The translations under genes were made by a program, and so were the position numbers. DNA of 44,835 bases, from the IMG/VR virus record IMGVR_UViG_3300025949_000040, positions 1 through 44,835 of that record; one strand, 5' to 3'. Shown in pieces: positions 2,792 through 44,824 of this stretch. The DNA comes from a virus. The notes under the pieces are model-generated. The model had not been told where the DNA came from, did no database searches, and was given only the letters and a program-made list of their open reading frames with translations. Within the stretch, counting starts at the first letter, position 1; the number at the start of each line of letters is the position of its first letter.

Positions 2792-2966
2792 AAGACTTGT
2801 CGACCAGCTCGATGTCTCCCCGACCCCTCACCTTGTAGACGGCGGGGACCAGGCGACGCTTCTCCGGAGAGAAGATCTGCGGGTGCTTCTTGAGGGACTT
2901 CCCGCTCGGGCGGGAGTCCTCGCGGACCTTCTTGTGGACGGTCGTCTTCTTCTTGCCCTTAGCCAT
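2784..2966 (-). CDS. small basic protein, 60 aa
   Basis: ATG start with GAGGAGCTGCTGT upstream, overlapping the stop of the previous gene. The first 30 residues are Lys/Arg-rich (MAKGKKKTTVHKKVREDS), typical of a nucleic-acid-binding or ribosome-associated peptide. A short beta-rich tail (LVPAVYKVRGRGDIELVD) follows. A DNA- or RNA-binding role is an inference from charge only; no family is recognised. Confidence 0.65.
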   Translation of the reverse strand: MAKGKKKTTVHKKVREDSRPSGKSLKKHPQIFSPEKRRLVPAVYKVRGRGDIELVDKSSL

Positions 2967-3147
2967 ACAGCAGCTCCTCGGGGTCTTGGTCGTACTGAGA
3001 GTCTACCTCAATCTGCCTACCTGTCAAGTCCCAGATGTCCTGGCACGTGGCGGAGCAGATCAGCGAGATCGAGTCCCACTGCATCACGTCGGAGCACACC
3101 AGGCACTTCGGTGGTTCCTCGATGATAGGATTCTTGTAAAATGCCAT
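2959..3147 (-). CDS. small zinc-ribbon-like protein, 62 aa
   Basis: The start MAFYKNPIIE follows GAGGAGTAACG. Cysteines are arranged C-x2-C (CLVC) and C-x3-C (CSATC) about 16 residues apart, consistent with one structural zinc. The C-terminus is acidic. It is the first gene behind the minihelix at 3184-3225 and overlaps the basic protein gene downstream, so the two are probably cotranslated. A treble-clef or zinc-ribbon adaptor is plausible; the function is unknown. Confidence 0.7.
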   Translation of the reverse strand: MAFYKNPIIEEPPKCLVCSDVMQWDSISLICSATCQDIWDLTGRQIEVDSQYDQDPEELLYG

Positions 3148-3183
3148 CGTTACTCCTCTTGCACGCTGCCAGGTGGCAGCAGT

Positions 3184-3225
3184 GCCCCGCATGGGACTCG
3201 CACCCATGTGTGTGCTACTCGGGGC
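3184..3225 (-). ncRNA. tRNA-like minihelix, copy 1
   Basis: Read on the minus strand, the acceptor-like stem GCCCCG/CGGGGC (6 bp) stacks on a T-arm CATGGG/CCCATG with the 7-nt loop TGCGAGT. The linker AGTAGCACACA (11 nt) replaces the D and anticodon arms. After the stem comes ACT and then a 7-bp hairpin (GCTGCCA/TGGCAGC) before the ribosome binding site of the gene starting at 3147. This copy alone has G at the T-loop position corresponding to U55, and alone has AG rather than GG in the linker. Confidence 0.8.
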
Positions 3226-3233
3226 TGACCGAA

Positions 3234-3749
3234 CTAGTAGTCGCTGCTTGCGCAGCCCAAGTCGGTCGGAACCAGCAGGTTGTTCTTGGTGTCGATCATG
3301 AGGTTGTCACCGTAGAGGTCACCGACCCCAGTCGCTTCACCGATGGCACTGCACACAGCGCTCCAGTACTGCGGCTCACCGTTCTCATCTTTGTACGTGC
3401 CGTAGTAGCTGTAGACGCCATCCAGCTTCTCGATGGCGATCACGCCCAGATGGTTCTCGCCGCCAGGCACGGGGTAGAACCCGAGCTGGGGCAGGCGAGA
3501 GCGCTTCGGCATCTTGCAGGAGAGGTACAGACGCTTCCACGTCTGCCACTCCCCATAGTTGGTCTGCCAGGACTCACCGCTCAGGTCCTTCTGGACCTTG
3601 TACACCACCCCAGAGGGAGCGAGGTACGCCGAACGGTAGCATCCGCCACCGAGGTACGTCCAGCCCGCAGGGGGCTGAGAGTAGCTTCCACGGGCAGGGC
3701 TGTGCCACCAGTTGTGGATGAACACAGCTTCTTCCGCATTGCCAATCAT
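3234..3749 (-). CDS. protein-kinase-like fold protein, 171 aa
   Basis: Several hallmarks of the kinase/aminoglycoside-phosphotransferase fold appear in order. They are a glycine-rich loop (LGGGCYRSAYL, about 33-43), VVYKVQ with a candidate ATP lysine (K51), a following Glu (E67), a hinge-like IEKLDG, a catalytic-loop-like GDLYGDNLMID (D144, N149) and a DFG-like TDLG (D163). At 171 aa it is much shorter than a full kinase, so it may be a minimal kinase, an inactive relative, or a regulator of host kinases. The start at 3749 is chosen because GGGAG sits 5 nt upstream; an ATG at 3761 is also possible. Substrate unknown. Confidence 0.6.
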   Translation of the reverse strand: MIGNAEEAVFIHNWWHSPARGSYSQPPAGWTYLGGGCYRSAYLAPSGVVYKVQKDLSGESWQTNYGEWQTWKRLYLSCKMPKRSRLPQLGFYPVPGGENHLGVIAIEKLDGVYSYYGTYKDENGEPQYWSAVCSAIGEATGVGDLYGDNLMIDTKNNLLVPTDLGCASSDY

Positions 3750-3792
3750 GTCCACTCCCATGGATCAGTGCATGCACTTTGCCTGCACTAGC

Positions 3793-3832
3793 GGGTGCCG
3801 GGGACTCGAACCCCGGTGTGTGCCTCTCACCC
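3793..3832 (-). ncRNA. tRNA-like minihelix, copy 2
   Basis: Minus strand: stem GGGTG/CACCC, linker AGAGGCACACA (11 nt), T-arm CCGGGG/CCCCGG with T-loop TTCGAGT. It is followed by GCT and a hairpin with arms AGTGCA/TGCACT. It lies upstream of the kinase-like gene and just downstream of the lipoprotein gene's stop. Geometry is identical to the other copies although the stems differ in sequence. Confidence 0.85.
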
Positions 3833-3838
3833 TAGGTG

Positions 3839-4261
3839 TTACTGGTCCTGCGGTCCGTCATCCGAGCTGCCTCGGAAGTCGACGTCCGGCAGGATCTGCT
3901 GCGGCTTGAACGTCACGCGGTAGTGGTAGGCAGAAGCCTTGATCGGCTCACCCTGCTCCACGGTGTACGTGACGTTGTCCGACAGGCCAGCGAAGAACTT
4001 CTTGTACTGGCCGGGACCGGTCTTGCAGATCGCGACCAGCTTGCCGGGGTCACCAGTGTCGATGGAGCACGCACCAGTGATCACCATGAGGTACTTGTCG
4101 GTGATGCCGTTGATCACAACGATCCGACGATTGACCTCGAAGTTGTCCGCAGCCTTGCTCACGTTCTTGGACGCCACATCGGCGTCCGACGAACAGGCCG
4201 TCGCACCTATGCCCAGAGCAACCGCCGCAGCAGTCGCAGCGACGATCTTACCCTTACGCAT
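3839..4261 (-). CDS. secreted lipoprotein, 140 aa
   Basis: A basic N-terminus (MRKGK), a hydrophobic Ala-rich core and a lipobox-like ATAC with Cys23 form a lipoprotein signal peptide. The mature part is about 118 residues with beta strands and two further cysteines that could form a disulphide outside the membrane. The product should be displayed on the outer face of the host membrane. Known phage lipoproteins often exclude superinfecting phage, so that role is inferred but not shown. GGGAGGACAC provides the ribosome binding site. It is a single gene behind its own minihelix (4299-4338). Confidence 0.75.
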   Translation of the reverse strand: MRKGKIVAATAAAVALGIGATACSSDADVASKNVSKAADNFEVNRRIVVINGITDKYLMVITGACSIDTGDPGKLVAICKTGPGQYKKFFAGLSDNVTYTVEQGEPIKASAYHYRVTFKPQQILPDVDFRGSSDDGPQDQ

Positions 4262-4298
4262 GTGTCCTCCCTTGTAGGGGCCCCGAATGGGCCCCAGT

Positions 4299-4338
4299 GC
4301 CAGCTCAGGACTCGAACCTGAGTGTCTGCCGGTCTGGC
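4299..4338 (-). ncRNA. tRNA-like minihelix, copy 3
   Basis: Minus strand: stem GCCAG/CTGGC, linker ACCGGCAGACA (11 nt), T-arm CTCAGG/CCTGAG with T-loop TTCGAGT. It is followed by ACT and a 7-bp hairpin GGGGCCC/GGGCCCC, then the ribosome binding site of the lipoprotein gene. Confidence 0.85.
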
Positions 4339-4348
4339 TACCACGCTC

Positions 4349-4783
4349 TTACCAACGGGGCTCAGCAGCCCACTCAGGGCTGTAAGGCTCGAAGTGCGGA
4401 CCCTCGTCGGAGTAGTTCACGTACATGTACTCACCGACACACTCGGTCTCGATGCCCATGTCGGCGACGGCGTCGTCGATCTTGTCGATCACCCTCCTGC
4501 GGGTCTTGCCGGACGACACGAAGTCGTCCACGAAGATCCACTTCTCGCCGATCTCGCCGAGCAGCCGACCCTTACCGTGGTGGCTGTCATCCGTCTCCTT
4601 GCGGATCAGGACGAACTTCTTGCCCAGCGCGAGAGCGAGAGCGGGGATCACGACACCACCAGAGAAGCCGGTGCCGACCAGAGTGTCGAACTCCACATCG
4701 GCCAGCTTCTTCTTCCCCTCCTCGATCACCTCGGCGAGGTTGAAGAGGGCGGTGTCCATGTACCACGTCTTGAACTTGCTCAT
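4349..4783 (-). CDS. phosphoribosyltransferase-like protein, 144 aa
   Basis: Residues 85-94 read VDDFVSSGKT, the PRPP-binding loop of type I phosphoribosyltransferases. They are preceded by a Rossmann-type strand/loop (DTLVGTGFSGGVVIPALALAL, about 33-53) and KKFVLIRKE, where these enzymes bind pyrophosphate. Family members transfer ribose phosphate from PRPP to a purine, pyrimidine or other base. The base specificity is not readable here. The length is near a minimal domain. Start ATG with AGGAGGAACAACC upstream. It lies alone between two minihelices (copies 3 and 4). A role in nucleotide salvage, or in regulating nucleotides for phage DNA, is inferred. Confidence 0.8.
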   Translation of the reverse strand: MSKFKTWYMDTALFNLAEVIEEGKKKLADVEFDTLVGTGFSGGVVIPALALALGKKFVLIRKETDDSHHGKGRLLGEIGEKWIFVDDFVSSGKTRRRVIDKIDDAVADMGIETECVGEYMYVNYSDEGPHFEPYSPEWAAEPRW

Positions 4784-4822
4784 GGTTGTTCCTCCTGTGA
4801 GCCAGACGCACGGTGCGTCAGT

Positions 4823-4862
4823 GCCTGCCTACGGCTCGAACGTAGGTGCCTGCCAGTCAGGC
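4823..4862 (-). ncRNA. tRNA-like minihelix, copy 4
   Basis: Minus strand: stem GCCTG/CAGGC, linker ACTGGCAGGCA (11 nt), T-arm CCTACG/CGTAGG with T-loop TTCGAGC. It is followed by ACT and hairpin GACGC/GCGTC, then the ribosome binding site of the phosphoribosyltransferase gene. Confidence 0.85.
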
Positions 4863-4868
4863 TGCCAC

Positions 4869-4964
4869 TTAGCGGCTACGGGTGATGTACAGGGCCCACA
4901 GGAGCCCTGTCACCCAACCAACGATGATGCCTGTGAGTACTCCTGTCAGGAATGCCTCAGTCAT
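4869..4964 (-). CDS. tiny membrane protein, 31 aa
   Basis: ATG start with GGAGGACTTCG upstream, overlapping the previous gene by 8 nt. Nearly the whole protein is one hydrophobic helix (FLTGVLTGIIVGWVTGLLWALY) with a basic end (RSR). The glycines are spaced like a GxxxG helix-packing motif, so it may oligomerise or pair with the 43-aa membrane protein encoded just before it. Function is unknown. It ends just before minihelix copy 4. Confidence 0.65.
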   Translation of the reverse strand: MTEAFLTGVLTGIIVGWVTGLLWALYITRSR

Positions 4965-5088
4965 CGAAGTCCTCCGGATGGTTGCGGTGCTGGAAGTAGA
5001 CCATGGTCCATGCTGCGATCATGGAGATCGCCAGAACGATGCCAGGGCCCACATACGGCGTCTGCATGATCCGTACGAAGGTGTCCAT
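4957..5088 (-). CDS. small membrane protein, 43 aa
   Basis: ATG start with AAGGAGGAATC, a strong ribosome binding site. There is one transmembrane segment (VGPGIVLAISMIAAWTMVYF) with a short N-terminus and a charged C-terminal tail (QHRNHPEDFDD). It is the first gene behind the minihelix at 5122-5161 and overlaps the 31-aa membrane gene. Two tiny coupled membrane proteins could form a pore, an exclusion system or a holin-like pair; no homologue is recognised. Confidence 0.7.
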   Translation of the reverse strand: MDTFVRIMQTPYVGPGIVLAISMIAAWTMVYFQHRNHPEDFDD

Positions 5089-5121
5089 GATTCCTCCTTG
5101 CAGCGCTCAGATGAGCGCAGT

Positions 5122-5161
5122 GGGTGCCCTGGACTCGAACCAGGGAGTATGCCGTTCACCC
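5122..5161 (-). ncRNA. tRNA-like minihelix, copy 5
   Basis: Minus strand: stem GGGTG/CACCC, linker AACGGCATACT (11 nt), T-arm CCCTGG/CCAGGG with T-loop TTCGAGT. ACT and a perfect hairpin GCGCTCA/TGAGCGC start directly after the stem and lead into the ribosome binding site of the 43-aa membrane gene. Confidence 0.85.
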
Positions 5162-5170
5162 CACCAAACC

Positions 5171-5539
5171 TCAGTGCCCGAAGATCTCAGGCAGGCGCTC
5201 GGCGATGTGGTAGTGCTCGAAGATCGCCAGTGGGAACAGTGCGACGACACCCGCAAGCAGGTAGTCATCGAACTTGCACCGCACGTGATGCACCTTGTTC
5301 ACCACGTGCTTACGCCACGTGATGTCGATCACAACGTGCAGCCCGAAGACCACGGGGTGGAACTCCCGGTGCACGTGACCCAATCGCGGGTGGCGACGGG
5401 TCACATGGACCCGGTGCCCATCGATGGGGTGCTCAACGACGTGGGAGAAGATCCATCGTTCACCGATCTCCTTCCCCTGGACGGCAACCAGCTTTGCGCC
5501 GGACTCGACCTCGCGTCCCTGAGCATTGATCAGTCGCAT
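5171..5539 (-). CDS. conserved-looking hypothetical protein, 122 aa, His-rich
   Basis: ATG start with AAAGGTACTGTC upstream. The N-terminus (MRLINAQGREVESGAKLVAV) is a beta-hairpin type fold that I recall from other actinophage hypothetical proteins, without a known function. Beyond it, many histidines occur (HVVEHPIDGHRVHVTRRHPRLGH and later), then a hydrophobic stretch (LLAGVVALFPLAIFEHY) that could be a membrane segment. Metal binding is possible. A 14-bp perfect palindrome (CCGCTGATCAGCGG) lies in its leader between the gene and minihelix copy 6. Confidence 0.65.
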   Translation of the reverse strand: MRLINAQGREVESGAKLVAVQGKEIGERWIFSHVVEHPIDGHRVHVTRRHPRLGHVHREFHPVVFGLHVVIDITWRKHVVNKVHHVRCKFDDYLLAGVVALFPLAIFEHYHIAERLPEIFGH

Positions 5540-5623
5540 GACAGTACCTTTCGGTTGGATTTACTGTTGCCCGCTGATCAGCGGATCCCTGTGTGCCGTT
5601 GCCACTTTAAGCGGCGCAAGCGT

Positions 5624-5663
5624 GGGTGTCAAGGGCTCGAACCTTGAAGCCTGCCAGTCACCC
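5624..5663 (-). ncRNA. tRNA-like minihelix, copy 6
   Basis: Minus strand: stem GGGTG/CACCC, linker ACTGGCAGGCT (11 nt), T-arm TCAAGG/CCTTGA with T-loop TTCGAGC. The 3' flank is ACG, not ACT, and the next hairpin (GCCGCT/AGTGGC) begins several bases later than in the other copies. It heads the leader of the gene at 5171-5539. Confidence 0.8.
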
Positions 5664-5671
5664 TGTGATGC

Positions 5672-5740
5672 TCACCACTGCGCCAGGTAGCGCAGGAAGC
5701 CGAGCACCATCACAAGCACGAAGATCGCACCCATGATCAC
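5672..5740 (-). CDS. tiny membrane peptide, 22 aa
   Basis: A GTG start overlaps the preceding stop as GTGA; an ATG two codons later (5734) is the alternative. The peptide is one hydrophobic helix (IMGAIFVLVMVLGFLRYLAQW). The ribosome binding site is weak, so translation would depend on coupling to the 32-aa gene upstream. It ends 9 bases before minihelix copy 6. It may be chance, but the tight overlap and purely hydrophobic content favour a real gene. Confidence 0.45.
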   Translation of the reverse strand: MIMGAIFVLVMVLGFLRYLAQW

Positions 5741-5835
5741 CACGACCCATCTGTAAGTCGCTTGCCGAAGATCGCAAGAAGGATCACCGGCCCGAACATC
5801 ATGATCACCCACAGGGTGATAGCCACCCAGTGCAT
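5737..5835 (-). CDS. tiny membrane protein, 32 aa
   Basis: ATG start after GAGGTGTGATC, overlapping the end of the gene at 5838-6056 region by coupling distance (2 nt gap to its stop). The sequence is one transmembrane helix (WVAITLWVIMMFGPVILLAIFG) with a basic end (KRLTDG). Together with the 22-aa peptide downstream it repeats the pattern at 4869-5088: two coupled miniature membrane proteins behind one minihelix. Function is unknown. Confidence 0.6.
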   Translation of the reverse strand: MHWVAITLWVIMMFGPVILLAIFGKRLTDGSW

Positions 5836-5837
5836 GA

Positions 5838-6056
5838 TCACACCTCATCGGCGTCGTCGGCGAAGTCCTCCGCAAGATCAGCGACCTCGTGGAAGTACTT
5901 GGGAGTGCCAGTGCTGATGATGTCATCGAGCACAACAGTGCCCGAATCGCTCACCGTGACCTCCCAGTCACCCTCGTACTTGCGTCCGAGAGTGCCGCCG
6001 CCCACCTTGCTGACACGGATCACTCGTGATCCACGCACAGTGGTGTACTCAGCCAT
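5838..6056 (-). CDS. hypothetical protein, 72 aa
   Basis: The start MAEYTTVRGS follows GGAGTACATC. The first 50 residues are predicted to be beta-rich (VIRVSKVGGGTLGRKYEGDWEVTVSDSGTVVL), and the C-terminus is acidic (DLAEDFADDADEV). No family is recognised. It is the first gene behind minihelix copy 7, followed by the two tiny membrane proteins. Confidence 0.65.
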   Translation of the reverse strand: MAEYTTVRGSRVIRVSKVGGGTLGRKYEGDWEVTVSDSGTVVLDDIISTGTPKYFHEVADLAEDFADDADEV

Positions 6057-6082
6057 GATGTACTCCAATCCATTGAGCCAGT

Positions 6083-6124
6083 GCCCCGCCACGGACTCGA
6101 ACCGTGGTGTATGCCATTCGGGGC
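6083..6124 (-). ncRNA. tRNA-like minihelix, copy 7
   Basis: Minus strand: stem GCCCCG/CGGGGC (6 bp, as in copy 1), linker AATGGCATACA (11 nt), T-arm CCACGG/CCGTGG with T-loop TTCGAGT. ACT follows, then a weaker hairpin (CTCAAT/ATTGGAG with a bulge) that contains part of the ribosome binding site of the gene starting at 6056. Confidence 0.85.
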
Positions 6125-6155
6125 TGGCCCCCACCCTAGGGGGCCCTACCACTCA

Positions 6156-6183
6156 CCTAGTAGGGCAAGGGCCTGCCACTAGG
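6156..6183 (-). terminator. intercistronic hairpin
   Basis: CCTAGT/ACTAGG with an inner GGCA/TGCC stem lies between the gene ending at 6218 and minihelix copy 7. A second GC-only hairpin (GGCCCCC/GGGGGCC) sits closer to the minihelix. There is no U-run, so a stabilising or processing structure is as likely as a terminator. Confidence 0.4.
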
Positions 6184-6217
6184 CGTGCGGGTGTCTATGT
6201 CGGGCTGAGGCCGAGGC

Positions 6218-6616
6218 TTACTCGGCTTCTGTACCCTGATCTGCCTTGACACGGATCTCCTCGCTGTTCTCGATGTCCCAGATGGCGATCTCGCCACGCT
6301 CGGCACCCAGCACGAAGGCGTCGTGGTAGTTGTCAACGTGGGTCACGGCGTCGAAGTAGATCATGCCGGTCTCCTTGTCAACCCACACTCCGAAGTAGCG
6401 GGACTCGGTGCCACCGATGAACCAGGCCAGGTCTCCCCGGTCCAGCTCGGACACGTTGCTCACCACCAGCGACGGACGGACGCCGCCCACGTAGAAACCG
6501 GTCTTGGGCAGGGCATCCTGCTCGAAACCGTCCAGGTGGGCCCACGAGTCGATCGTCCCGTCCTCACCAGCACGGGCCATGACGGTCAGTGCAAGGGCGG
6601 TCTCGTATGCGTTCAT
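6218..6616 (-). CDS. hypothetical acidic protein, 132 aa
   Basis: The start MNAYETALAL follows AGGAGGACATC. The protein is acidic and rich in beta strands (WFIGGTESRYFGVWVDKETGMIYFDAVTH), suggesting a compact beta fold, with an acidic C-terminus. I see no catalytic motif. It is a single gene behind minihelix copy 8 and is followed by a structured intercistronic region. Function is unknown. Confidence 0.7.
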   Translation of the reverse strand: MNAYETALALTVMARAGEDGTIDSWAHLDGFEQDALPKTGFYVGGVRPSLVVSNVSELDRGDLAWFIGGTESRYFGVWVDKETGMIYFDAVTHVDNYHDAFVLGAERGEIAIWDIENSEEIRVKADQGTEAE

Positions 6617-6653
6617 GATGTCCTCCTGTAAGGAACGGCCGGACGGCCGTAGC

Positions 6654-6693
6654 GGGTGGCCAGGACTCGAACCTAGCTGTATGCCGTTCACCC
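6654..6693 (-). ncRNA. tRNA-like minihelix, copy 8
   Basis: Minus strand: stem GGGTG/CACCC, linker AACGGCATACA (11 nt), T-arm GCTAGG/CCTGGC (one G-U pair) with T-loop TTCGAGT. GCT follows, then hairpin ACGGCCG/CGGCCGT and the ribosome binding site of the gene starting at 6616. It is the promoter-proximal copy. Confidence 0.85.
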
Positions 6694-7229: not shown

Positions 7230-7311
7230 GAGCCAAGAGGGCAGACAGAAGACAGCAGGATCAGGCGGCCCAAAGGGCCTGCCGTCACCACTCCTGTCTG
7301 CCCGATGGCTC
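7230..7311 (-). promoter_or_regulatory. long leader stem (rRNA-like processing stalk)
   Basis: The arms GAGCCA...GGGCAGACAG and CTGTCTGCCC...TGGCTC pair over about 17 bp and enclose an inner hairpin GGCGGCCC/GGGCCTGCC with an AAA loop. It lies between the boxA-like motif and the first leftward gene. rRNA leaders have a comparable boxA-then-stalk arrangement cut by RNase III, so this may be a processing site. Confidence 0.5.
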
Positions 7312-7458
7312 TTACAGGGAATTGGACTGTGCACGAACTAGCTCCAGCCGAGCGGCTACCGTCTGACCACGATTTGACTACGTGTGGCCCGTCCGGATCC
7401 CGGCTTCGCTGGCACTGGAGCGCTTGAGGGCAAGGATCGCCCCGCTCGTGCACTGCAC

Positions 7459-7481
7459 ACTGTTGAGTTCTCAAAGAACAG
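7459..7481 (-). promoter_or_regulatory. rrn-type boxA antitermination motif
   Basis: The minus strand reads GTTCTTTGAGAACTCAACAG followed by TGTGC. This matches the boxA region that precedes rRNA genes in actinobacteria, where NusB/S10 load antitermination factors. It sits about 250 nt upstream of the first leftward gene, in the right orientation. In rRNA operons boxA lets polymerase pass terminators and hairpins. Here it could carry transcription through the many hairpins and minihelices of the 7-kb leftward operon. The match is from memory and not from an alignment. Confidence 0.6.
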
Positions 7482-8065
7482 CCCTGGTGTTCTCGACTCC
7501 TCTGGATGCTGTCCCGTCCCACCGTTATGACCGGCAGTAACGTTCACCAGAGGCCCTCGAAGCCCATTACAGGCCCTTGGAAGGTCCCACCCAGCCCATG
7601 TGCCCCGGACCCCCGGAAGGGGGCCGTACCTAGCGCCTGAGCCTCGTACGTTGGTGTTGCTGTGTTGCTGAGACGACTGTCTCGCACTTCCGGAGACTTG
7701 TCAAGCCCCTTGTTCGGACGTCCCGTGTGACTTGGGTCCGGCCTCGTTTTAGCCCCTAGGGGGTGTCTGGCCTTTCTGGCAGTCGATGGGACTCGCGTCC
7801 TAGCGCGGGCCCTGCGTTGTCTCCCTCCGTTGAGTCGGTCTGTCTCGGCTGCCGCCCCGTTGTGGCGGCGACAAGCTCCAGAGACACCTTTGCAGCGGGT
7901 TACGTCAAGCATCGCAGGTCAGGGGCATAGCGGCTGAGTGACGATAAGGCTCGATTTGCGGGAGCTAACAGTGAACGCACTTGCATCGTCCCAGCTCACC
8001 CCGCGTCGGGCGGGCCGACCTTCGGAGGCCCTCACCGCCTCTGACCTGGTGAGATACGAGTTTTC

Positions 8066-8173
8066 AAGATCTTTCTGGTAGCTCAGATGAGCAAAGATCT
8101 TACAGAACGTACAGAACAGCTAGGTTCGATGGTGTCCAGCACGCCTGACCTATCAATGTGGCCTAAAGATCTT
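8066..8173. repeat. three AAGATCTT palindromes and a tandem TACAGAAC repeat
   Basis: AAGATCTT occurs at 8066-8073, 8094-8101 and 8166-8173, and TACAGAACG/TACAGAACA is tandem at 8101-8118. Three copies of a rare-in-window 8-bp palindrome in 108 bp suggests a repressor or activator binding array upstream of the late genes. Confidence 0.45.
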
Positions 8174-8330
8174 CAGACTCCAGGGATTCCATGATCATCC
8201 ATGGATGTTCCCTGCGTTTGCTGTGCGCACCTACGACGCGCGTTGAGGGGAACCATGCGCACGCGTAGACCTTCGGATCGTAGGGGGAGGGGACAGTCCC
8301 CCACCACAATCCAAGGCAAACACGCATCAT

Positions 8331-8380
8331 GGCCTGCATTTGCCAGGCTAGGAGCAGCTTTGGCCTGCATATGCAAGGCT
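8331..8380. repeat. paired operator-like imperfect palindromes
   Basis: GGCCTGCATTTGCCAGGCT (8331-8349) and GGCCTGCATATGCAAGGCT (8362-8380) are 19-bp direct repeats differing at three positions, and each is an imperfect palindrome (GCC..GCA..TGC..GGC). Centre spacing is 31 bp, close to three helical turns, so two dimers could bind the same face. Confidence 0.5.
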
Positions 8381-8397
8381 TGGGCCCACTATGTGTA

Positions 8398-8428
8398 CAC
8401 ATGAGCAGAGCTGCGCTCACATGAGCAG
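8398..8428. repeat. direct repeat CACATGAGCAG
   Basis: CACATGAGCAG occurs at 8398-8408 and 8418-8428, 20 bp apart (about two helical turns), immediately after the two operator-like palindromes. Confidence 0.4.
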
Positions 8429-8475
8429 CGCTGGCCACCACATCTCGGGGCGTAGCACCACACACCACACCAGAT

Positions 8476-8517
8476 CGGACATAGATGGGCAGGCCGGTCG
8501 ATGTCAGCCCATGTCCG
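8476..8517. repeat. inverted repeat upstream of candidate promoter
   Basis: CGGACAT and ATGTCCG, with inner GGGC/GCCC, pair across about 16 nt. It ends 36 bp before the candidate -35 box, so it may be an operator or a hairpin in a longer leader. Confidence 0.4.
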
Positions 8518-8553
8518 ACCCCAGGGTGTTAAATCGGGCACGACACTGTGTGT

Positions 8554-8583
8554 GTGAGACCCCTCAGAAATGTACCATAAAAT
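8554..8583 (+). promoter_or_regulatory. candidate rightward promoter
   Basis: GTGAGA, an 18-bp spacer and TAAAAT approximate -35 and -10 boxes (four and five of six consensus bases). Transcription would start about 320 nt before the terminase gene and produce a structured leader. The boxes are a by-eye match only. Confidence 0.35.
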
Positions 8584-8755
8584 GTAGACGCAAAGTGACG
8601 AACCAGGGCTCCATCGTGACTCTCAGTAGAACATTGGTAAAGAGTTGGTAACGCTGCTTGCGCGCAAGGGCGTGAAAGGGTCCTCTATGACTATGAGCCC
8701 CCCAGAGTTGATAGGTCGGACGTGAGCCACCATGGACAGAGGGACTCACCCGAGA

Positions 8756-8778
8756 CACCGCCCCCTGACGGGGCGGTG
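8756..8778 (+). promoter_or_regulatory. leader hairpin 1
   Basis: CACCGCCCC/GGGGCGGTG, 9 bp with a 5-nt loop, in the presumed leader of the late operon. There is no U-run, so it could be an attenuator or stabiliser. Confidence 0.45.
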
Positions 8779-8846
8779 GTGAACCATAGACTGCCATATA
8801 CATCCTCCGGATGCCGCTTCGCGGAATACCTCCCCGCTACTCTCTA

Positions 8847-8866
8847 CCACGGCCCTTCGGCCGTGG
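8847..8866 (+). promoter_or_regulatory. leader hairpin 2
   Basis: CCACGGCC/GGCCGTGG, 8 bp with a CTTC loop, about 50 nt before the terminase start codon. It leaves the ribosome binding site free and could stabilise the 5' end of late mRNA. Confidence 0.45.
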
Positions 8867-8914
8867 AGAATCATGGTAGTCCATATCAAAGCAGGACTAT
8901 CAAGGAGGACCACA

Positions 8915-40345: not shown

Positions 40346-40358
40346 TGGATCACCTCCG

Positions 40359-40438
40359 TGGAGCTGAGGGGATTCGAACCCCTGTCCTACCACCGTCCGC
40401 GTGCGGTTTTCAGTGGCAGTCGAAACCAATCCAGCCCC
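40359..40438 (-). ncRNA. tmRNA-like tRNA-like domain without a tag frame
   Basis: On the minus strand the 5' end GGGGCTGGATTGGTTTCGAC has the tmRNA start pattern (acceptor strand, D-loop-like GGTTTCGACT). The 3' end has a T-arm AGGGG/CCCCT with TTCGAAT and acceptor CAGCTCC plus A. G3 pairs with U70, the alanine determinant used by tmRNA. A 7-bp P2-like helix CTGCCAC/GTGGTAG encloses only 19 nt, so there is no mRNA-like tag region. Total 80 nt. It ends a few bases before the ribosome site of the next leftward gene. Either a truncated tmRNA-derived alanyl acceptor, or a larger relative of the minihelices, is possible. Confidence 0.65.
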
Positions 40439-41379: not shown

Positions 41380-41629
41380 CCGTCTCCACCTTTCCCCATG
41401 AGTCTACCCAGTTGGCGATGTGGTCCTTGACCGCATCGTCGAGAACAGCCTGTCGCTGCTTCTCATCCATCTCGTCCCACTCTTCGTCCGAGATGCCGAA
41501 CTCTTCAAGCGGGTAGTCGTCCTCCTGGGTCGAGCGACCAACGGTCACGCCCAGGATGATCCGGTACTTGTTCTCCTTCGGCTCCGCGTACTTGTCGTTC
41601 CAGTACGCGTCGTCAGAACGGGAGCCCAT
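41372..41629 (-). CDS. hypothetical acidic protein, 85 aa
   Basis: The start MGSRSDDAYW follows AGTGAGGAAG. An acidic helical protein with a hydrophobic strand (KYRIILGVTVG) and an acidic helix (SDEEWDEMDEKQRQAVLDDAVKDHIANW). The start lies inside the nuclease gene upstream. Function unknown. Confidence 0.6.
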   Translation of the reverse strand: MGSRSDDAYWNDKYAEPKENKYRIILGVTVGRSTQEDDYPLEEFGISDEEWDEMDEKQRQAVLDDAVKDHIANWVDSWGKVETDG

Positions 41630-44154: not shown

Positions 44155-44824
44155 CTTTACGAGACTGACACCGGCAGTCGAGCGTGCTGCCGGTATCGCG
44201 TTGTCCAACTTCCCTGCCCACCACGAGATCTCAGATGTGAAGCAGGAGATCTGGGTGTGGATCATGGAGAACAAGAACACCGTCACCAGAGTCCTCACCG
44301 AACAGAACTACGAGCAGAAGCTCATGGGCTTGCTCGTCCGTGCCGCCAACTCTGCACTCCGGACGGAGGATGCGGCGGTCTACGGGTACGATGAGGAGGA
44401 GGTGTTCCACTTCTCGCTCGACCTGATCAAGAGCATCCTGGAAGTCGTGTTCATCCACGAAGACTGGCAGTCCTTCGCTCAGGCTGCGCAGGATGGCATG
44501 CCCCGAGCTAAGTCGGAACCTGCCACATCTGGCAACAACCTGGCGAGCTATGCCGACGTCAGTCGTGCAATCACCTCGCTCCCAGAAGATCAGTACAACC
44601 TGCTGGTCTGGCGGTACAAGTACAACGAGACGTTCGCACAGATCGGCGAACACCTCGGACTGTCCAGGCAGGCGGCTCAGCAGCGCCACGAGGCGGCTGT
44701 GAGCGCCATCCAGCAGTACCTGGGCAAGAGGGACCTGGCCGGTGTTCGTAACCCGGCAGAGGTGCCCTACAGGCCCGGCAATGCGGCCTCTCGTGCTCGC
44801 TCAGAGCGAGACTACGAAGGCTGA
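44147..44824 (+). CDS. sigma-70-like transcription factor, 225 aa
   Basis: A C-terminal region (about 141-190, SLPEDQYNLLVWRYKYN followed by a helix-turn-helix around 162-183) has the sigma region 4 pattern that reads -35 elements. The N-terminal ~100 residues could hold a region 2-like helix bundle (HHEISDVKQEIWVWIM). The C-terminus is basic and disordered. It may direct host polymerase to phage promoters, or serve as an anti-sigma partner. ATG overlaps the mini-protein gene by 8 nt. Confidence 0.8.
   Translation: MLDFTRLTPAVERAAGIALSNFPAHHEISDVKQEIWVWIMENKNTVTRVLTEQNYEQKLMGLLVRAANSALRTEDAAVYGYDEEEVFHFSLDLIKSILEVVFIHEDWQSFAQAAQDGMPRAKSEPATSGNNLASYADVSRAITSLPEDQYNLLVWRYKYNETFAQIGEHLGLSRQAAQQRHEAAVSAIQQYLGKRDLAGVRNPAEVPYRPGNAASRARSERDYEG

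Follow-up and report, generated by a model that had tools for sequence, protein, structure and literature searches.

Mini-tRNA elements with a predicted tRNA elbow and no anticodon arm in the leaders of early phage genes: candidate punctuation marks for polycistronic mRNA

In mitochondrial transcripts, intergenic tRNA structures are excised and mRNAs are thereby freed, and T7-like phages carry repeated RNase III processing hairpins between their early genes. Tertiary features of tRNA have also been rebuilt in RNAs that are not tRNAs: the tRNA-like structures of plant viruses, such as turnip yellow mosaic virus (TYMV), reconstruct the D/T elbow by a topology of their own (PMC4810234), and mascRNA, whose D-arm is reduced, is set free by cuts of RNase P and RNase Z and receives CCA (PMC11693755). 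The M3 RNA of phage phi80 and phage C4 antisense RNA, both non-tRNA and phage-derived, are processed by bacterial RNase P (PMC11143913). Here we analyse eight minus-strand tRNA-like elements in the leaders of leftward genes of the IMG/VR virus record IMGVR_UViG_3300025949_000040 (the whole 44,835-nt stretch is referred to as the window), each of which appears to be a tRNA without its anticodon arm, and relate them to hundreds of similar elements in other phages and viral contigs.

These elements follow a stop codon and precede the Shine-Dalgarno (SD) sequence of the next gene, on the coding strand, and each of the closest described systems differs from them in some respect. MascRNA and menRNA are likewise tRNA-like, with a small D-arm and a GG docked in the T-loop, and lie within a long transcript, but they are vertebrate RNAs of about 60 nt, present in single copy, that keep an anticodon-like arm. 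Plant-virus tRNA-like structures share with the elements a rebuilt D/T elbow in a viral RNA; unlike them, they are 3'-terminal, aminoacylatable and provided with CCA, and do not occur as repeated internal copies. The M3 and C4 RNAs, which can be likened to the elements by description, are single RNAs of enterobacterial phages that form no intercistronic arrays. Mitochondrial punctuation marks are functional tRNAs, whereas the phage elements cannot decode, and the RNase III sites of T7-like phages are long double-stranded hairpins served by another enzyme. A search of Rfam, proposed along with the original prediction of the eight elements, returned nothing at the gathering score. As to a known Rfam family, only weak mascRNA matches and one unrelated chance match appeared up to E 10, the best being mascRNA-menRNA (RF01684) at 20.9 bits (E 0.69) and another reaching 19.6 bits, against a gathering score of 42.5. 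Nor did the literature, searched mostly without subscription papers, yield a description of the family, which is not proof of novelty; the papers on Endor1/2 and Vanseggelen/Verabelle do not mention the elements. The claim that no described RNA family has this form has so far stood, and we regard the RNA family as real, widespread and apparently undescribed, and as best named a variant of the viral tRNA-like structures.

All eight elements were located, by direct reading and by script, exactly where they had been predicted (Table 1), and they share the architecture ascribed to them: an acceptor stem of 5 bp in six copies and 6 bp in two, an 11-nt linker, a 6-bp T-stem and a 7-nt T-loop, TTCGAGY, which is TGCGAGT in one copy. 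A strict descriptor found eight elements in the real window as against a mean of 0.017 and a maximum of one in 60 second-order Markov simulations; when relaxed, it returned the eight elements together with the genuine tRNA-Asn and two weak matches due to chance. The compensatory variation of the stems was also confirmed, with standard pairs in 100% of cells and 10 of 15 pairs showing changes in both partners across the eight copies, and no shuffle matched this pairing and two-sided change. The eight elements are real and lie far above chance. Their folding-energy z-scores (−0.1 to −1.6) are uninformative, plain energies not setting the elements apart. As candidates for ordinary tRNA genes they were rejected, cmscan (RF00005, gathering cut-off) reporting only the two real tRNAs of the window; ARAGORN gave only a false tRNA-Pro at 6081–6166 (−), a miscall of element 2.

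An anticodon arm is absent, as had been claimed, because the 11-nt linker leaves no space for one. The D-arm had been thought absent too, and here the prediction needs revision. Covariation was counted in 220 distinct elements from IMG/VR contigs, with a descriptor that demanded acceptor and T-stem pairing; linker pairs, ends and downstream hairpin had no part in the search criteria. Linker positions 2 and 8 covary (CG 119, GC 52, AT 45, TA 2, GT 1 and one non-pair), as do linker position 9 and the last base of the T-loop, base 60 (AT 152, GC 46, CG 10, TA 4, GT 3). Linker position 10 is C in 218 elements, opposite a G59 present in 216, although letter invariance in the seed copies is partly biased because the seed pattern fixed GGCA, C10 and GGTTCGAGYCC there; the eight window copies are unaffected. 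Linker position 4 (position 18 in tRNA numbering) and loop position 55 change jointly (G-T 210, A-G 9). When 50 diverse copies were aligned without gaps, 14 pairs were 100% paired, a perfection that in the acceptor and T-stem is partly by construction, since the descriptor demanded it; the covariation score of the 14 pairs was 0.824 compared with 0.185 for shuffled and at most 0.178 for slid alignments. Linker positions 2 to 8 are thus predicted to form a one-pair D-hairpin with the loop N-G18-G19-C-A, whose GG would dock into the T-loop as in tRNA, and the two bases that follow would pair with T-loop bases 60 and 59. Of the contacts that make up the D/T-loop elbow (G18-U55, G19-C56 and T54-A58), the GG and TTCRA are conserved and positions 18 and 55 covary. 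The GG of this miniature D-arm and its pairs to the T-loop indicate that the elements retain the elbow of a tRNA and lack the anticodon arm alone, so that, on covariation evidence, a tRNA without anticodon arm and with its elbow intact replaces the earlier picture of a minihelix without a D-arm, and the elbow is under selection.

Variant elements with linkers of 10–19 nt, read by eye, occur in the same arrays, and several have a real D-stem of 3–4 bp (GTC-TGGT-GAC, CCA-CGGT-TGG and GTAG-TGCAAGG-CTAC are examples). In readable variants GG accompanies T55 and AG accompanies G55, the R73-C74 end is kept and a following hairpin is common. Those with middles of 16–19 nt, which keep the 18–55 rule and some of which have a 4-bp D-stem, are found at L180:1063 (Lika), L014, L018, L037, L113, L087, L122 and L040. 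Among the variants the middle appears to change while the elbow and the acceptor end stay.

The surroundings of the elements were summarized over 201 independent copies. The base before the acceptor, A-1, is A in 79%, the discriminator R73 is A or G in 96%, C74 is likewise present in 96%, and T or G occupies position 75 in 87%; no conserved sequence upstream beyond A-1 and no promoter motif was found in these copies. In 168 of the 201 the nearest stop triplet in any frame ends 0–14 nt upstream, and the distance downstream to the next start codon preceded by an SD is mostly 30–50 nt. Directly 3' of the R73-C74 end stands a second hairpin, of variable sequence, which did not figure in the original prediction: 60% of copies, as against 9% of shuffled sequences, have a stem of 5 bp or more whose start lies at offset 2–6, and for stems of 6 bp or more the shares are 50% and 3%. 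In the window it follows the element in seven of eight leaders (none is clear at element 2, and element 3 has a weaker one farther off), and in most window copies the SD sequence lies outside both structures. The predicted placement between a stop codon and the next gene on the same strand holds, and in phage Joe all eight elements occupy gaps between annotated leftward genes. One such element, some 40 nt long, is present in most gaps between neighbouring early genes of Streptomyces-type phages.

The original prediction had staked itself on homologues and covariation in related phages, and hundreds of covarying homologues were found. A descriptor scan of the 96 stretches of viral contigs that an initial pattern scan had yielded, and of the window's own loci, gave 415 elements, 393 of them with an 11-nt linker, compared with one in Markov-resampled sequence; a second viral-contig pattern, its spacing off by one base, catches 6-bp acceptors only. 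About 390 further copies were found in IMG/VR contigs and in phages of Camvirus, Likavirus and Hautrevirus, Endor1, Joe and Lika among them. The covariance model R1 found eight in the window, 8–10 in the Camvirus phages Endor1, Endor2, Joe, Sitrop and Verse, eight in Lika, six in phiHau3 and 15 in one 57-kb contig; copies per genome often number 6–15. In nearly all genomes inspected the elements are confined to one region and one strand. One 120-kb contig, IMGVR_UViG_3300036801_000212 (G008), carries opposite-strand clusters at 56–57 kb and 117 kb, and their matching scores suggest an inverted duplication or a chimeric assembly. Class-1 elements were not found in R4, phiC31, phiSASD1, SV1, Manuel, Stella or Treat, the last three being Beephvirinae relatives (the window's terminase is 63% identical to that of Beephvirinae Streptomyces phages), nor were elements found in Mischief19 or Mycobacterium phage SororFago, and BRock gave a single marginal, partial R1 match of 17 nt (E 0.0097). 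Arrays, prophage-like in both cases, were present in only two of the 296 genomes from the genus of a Streptomyces host, and a genome scan also gave matches in Amycolatopsis, Jiangella, a Gemmatimonadota metagenome-assembled genome and an unclassified bacterium. The Gemmatimonadota genome, bin118 (L122), lies outside the Actinobacteria, and its five R1 matches may belong to a prophage or a mis-binned phage. The GenBank tRNA-Arg annotations at 44378–44460 of Endor2 and 41493–41575 of Sitrop overlap a mini-tRNA element. At the orthologous gaps Manuel and Stella (L116, L138) have a long hairpin, then a second short hairpin and AAGGGAGAG; a leader resembling this type lies at 2706–2783 (−) of the window, just past the last mini-tRNA.

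Punctuation of a polycistronic early mRNA by RNase P and RNase Z, one of the functions put forward originally, is in our judgement the best explanation, and we hold it with slightly more confidence than doubt; it is from anatomy, that is from structure, covariation, position and end motifs, that we infer cleavage, the enzymes responsible and a stabilizing role for the hairpin. The host would take the element for a CCA-less pre-tRNA, RNase P would cut at or beside the conserved A-1 and RNase Z after R73, and the early mRNA would be split into separate stable units. The 3' end of the upstream unit would be fixed at a few nucleotides beyond its stop codon, and the downstream unit would begin with C-T/G followed by a hairpin at its very 5' end, which may shield it from 5'-end-dependent decay while leaving the Shine-Dalgarno sequence free. 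Such a cut after R73 would explain why the hairpin is fixed to the end of the element. The part of tRNA that the elements preserve is the one that both enzymes measure, namely the elbow face at G19-C56 and the acceptor end (PMC4919913, PMC4810234), and model substrates consisting of acceptor and T-arm are cut correctly by Escherichia coli RNase P RNA (PMC11143913). For RNase P, an acceptor/T-arm stack near 12 bp with a T-loop is expected, and nearly all copies have 11–12 bp, mostly 11; for pairing of RCC(A) to the GGU of P RNA, R73-C74 is 96% conserved and position 75 is mostly U or G (the L15 motif of the host P RNA was not located by a simple string search). For RNase Z, no CCA is encoded after the discriminator, the elements ending in RCT, RCG or RCA, and of 30 tRNA genes in a Streptomyces genome most likewise encode no CCA and often have C74. 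Whether Streptomyces phages and their relatives evolved a mini-tRNA family as serial punctuation for the host tRNA-maturation enzymes, with RNase Z making hairpin-capped 5' ends, seems to us an evenly balanced question.

Several observations count against processing by these enzymes. Most copies have 11 stacked pairs rather than 12, so that a strict ruler could place the RNase P cut across A-1, on its opposite side; CCA is missing, position 75 being rarely C and mostly U or G; plain folding energies are unremarkable, and for elements 3 and 5 other local folds compete when tertiary contacts are left out; and the elements are absent from R4 and from sister phages that have orthologous genes, other hairpins being present there, which implies that the function is replaceable and not unique to this structure. 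The plain hairpins of the sister phages would also suit a roadblock, in which the uncut, folded elbow halts exonucleases running 5'-to-3' (RNase J) or 3'-to-5' and shields the cistron beside it, as would the compact pseudoknotted fold with its tertiary pairs and the site just past stop codons and ahead of leaders. However, a barrier needs neither tRNA-exact ends (A-1, R73-C74) nor a faithful T-loop, plain hairpins being sufficient, and we consider a roadblock unlikely. Action in trans, with excised mini-tRNAs accumulating and titrating or modulating EF-Tu, CCA-adding or modifying enzymes or tRNA-directed defence nucleases, would draw on the many copies per genome and on the retention of the elbow and acceptor, which are what tRNA-binding proteins bind (PMC4810234), yet the strict intercistronic placement, with hairpin and SD at a fixed distance, points to action in cis, anticodon nucleases would find no anticodon, and the acceptor sequences vary, so that no single synthetase identity is kept. 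We judge such a mimic distinctly improbable. The joint conservation of ends, flanking hairpin and intergenic position also lowers the likelihood of the decoy for tRNA-binding proteins proposed originally.

The distance to the next SD and start codon could also be read as the mark of a translation leader, in which element and hairpin set up or couple ribosome loading on the next gene. This we hold to be very unlikely, as the SD stands clear of both structures in most window copies, no tie between element and start codon is seen, and selection acts on a tRNA elbow and not on SD pairing. Inverted repeats between genes are, finally, what a transcription terminator or a promoter-associated DNA element might present, and Streptomyces phage phiC31 has early terminators that lack poly-U. 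Nevertheless, the elements have no T-run and no conserved upstream promoter motif, their G-U pairs and tertiary covariation indicate selection on RNA, and phiC31 itself has no element match; we give this explanation hardly any credence.

Table 1. Coordinates of the mini-tRNA elements of the window, their hairpins and the genes that follow them
Feature	Position	Strand	Remarks
tRNA-like element 1	6654..6693	-	GGGTG acceptor, T-loop TTCGAGT, 3' GCT; covariance model R1, 62 bits
Hairpin 3' of element 1	6635..6650	-	ACGGCC-GTCC-GGCCGT; begins directly after R73-C-T
Gene after element 1	6218..6616	-	phrog_17808, unknown
tRNA-like element 2	6083..6124	-	6-bp GCCCCG acceptor, 12-bp stack; no clear downstream hairpin
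First gene after element 2	5838..6056	-	gene listing
tRNA-like element 3	5624..5663	-	GGGTG, loop TTCGAGC, 3' ACG; not favoured by local minimum free energy (MFE) without tertiary contacts
Perfect hairpin farther down leader 3	5571..5584	-	CCGCTGATCAGCGG; weaker hairpin at 5601-5615
Gene after element 3	5171..5539	-	no family match
tRNA-like element 4	5122..5161	-	GGGTG, TTCGAGT, 3' ACT
Hairpin 3' of element 4	5103..5118	-	GCGCTC-ATCT-GAGCGC
First gene of pair after element 4	4957..5088	-	gene listing
tRNA-like element 5	4823..4862	-	GCCTG, TTCGAGC, 3' ACT; MFE alternative local hairpin GCCTG-ACTGG-CAGGC
Hairpin 3' of element 5	4805..4819	-	GACGCA-CCG-TGCGTC
Phosphoribosyltransferase-like gene after element 5	4349..4783	-	phrog_2068
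tRNA-like element 6	4299..4338	-	GCCAG, TTCGAGT, 3' ACT; upstream of recombination directionality factor (RDF) gene
Hairpin 3' of element 6	4277..4295	-	GGGGCCC-ATTCG-GGGCCCC
RDF gene after element 6	3839..4261	-	phrog_478
tRNA-like element 7	3793..3832	-	GGGTG, TTCGAGT, 3' GCT; top R1 score of the window, 67 bits
Hairpin 3' of element 7	3766..3790	-	AGTGCA...TGCACT
Gene after element 7	3234..3747	-	phrog_28435
tRNA-like element 8	3184..3225	-	6-bp GCCCCG; A18-G55 variant of the elbow (linker AG, loop TGCGAGT)
Hairpin 3' of element 8	3165..3180	-	GCTGCC-ACCT-GGCAGC
Gene after element 8	2959..3147	-	gene listing

Elsewhere in the window, about 1.5 kb at 7300–8870, between the leftward and rightward gene blocks, contains little that is clearly coding, along with numerous short inverted repeats, and is probably the control region. 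A class II-like tRNA gene without discriminator at 1–83 (−) is truncated by the end of the record, which is probably incomplete at that end. At 40356–40438 (−) lies an 83-nt tmRNA-like RNA (RF00023, 71 bits, E 7.5e-26) that has the tmRNA 5' and 3' ends without the mRNA/tag domain and is followed by ACG, an SD sequence and a leftward open reading frame of 44 aa; it is another tRNA-like leader, and had no match in the phages collection nor to one pattern in viral contigs.

The elements make up a widespread and apparently undescribed RNA family in much-used laboratory phages, Endor1, Endor2, Joe, Verse and Lika, in which some copies have been misannotated as tRNAs. Punctuation by host tRNA-maturation enzymes suggests a way in which a bacterial virus could set individual mRNA ends within one transcript. 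The hundreds of natural minimal tRNA mimics suggest in turn that the maturation enzymes may need the elbow and the acceptor end of their substrate and not its anticodon half.

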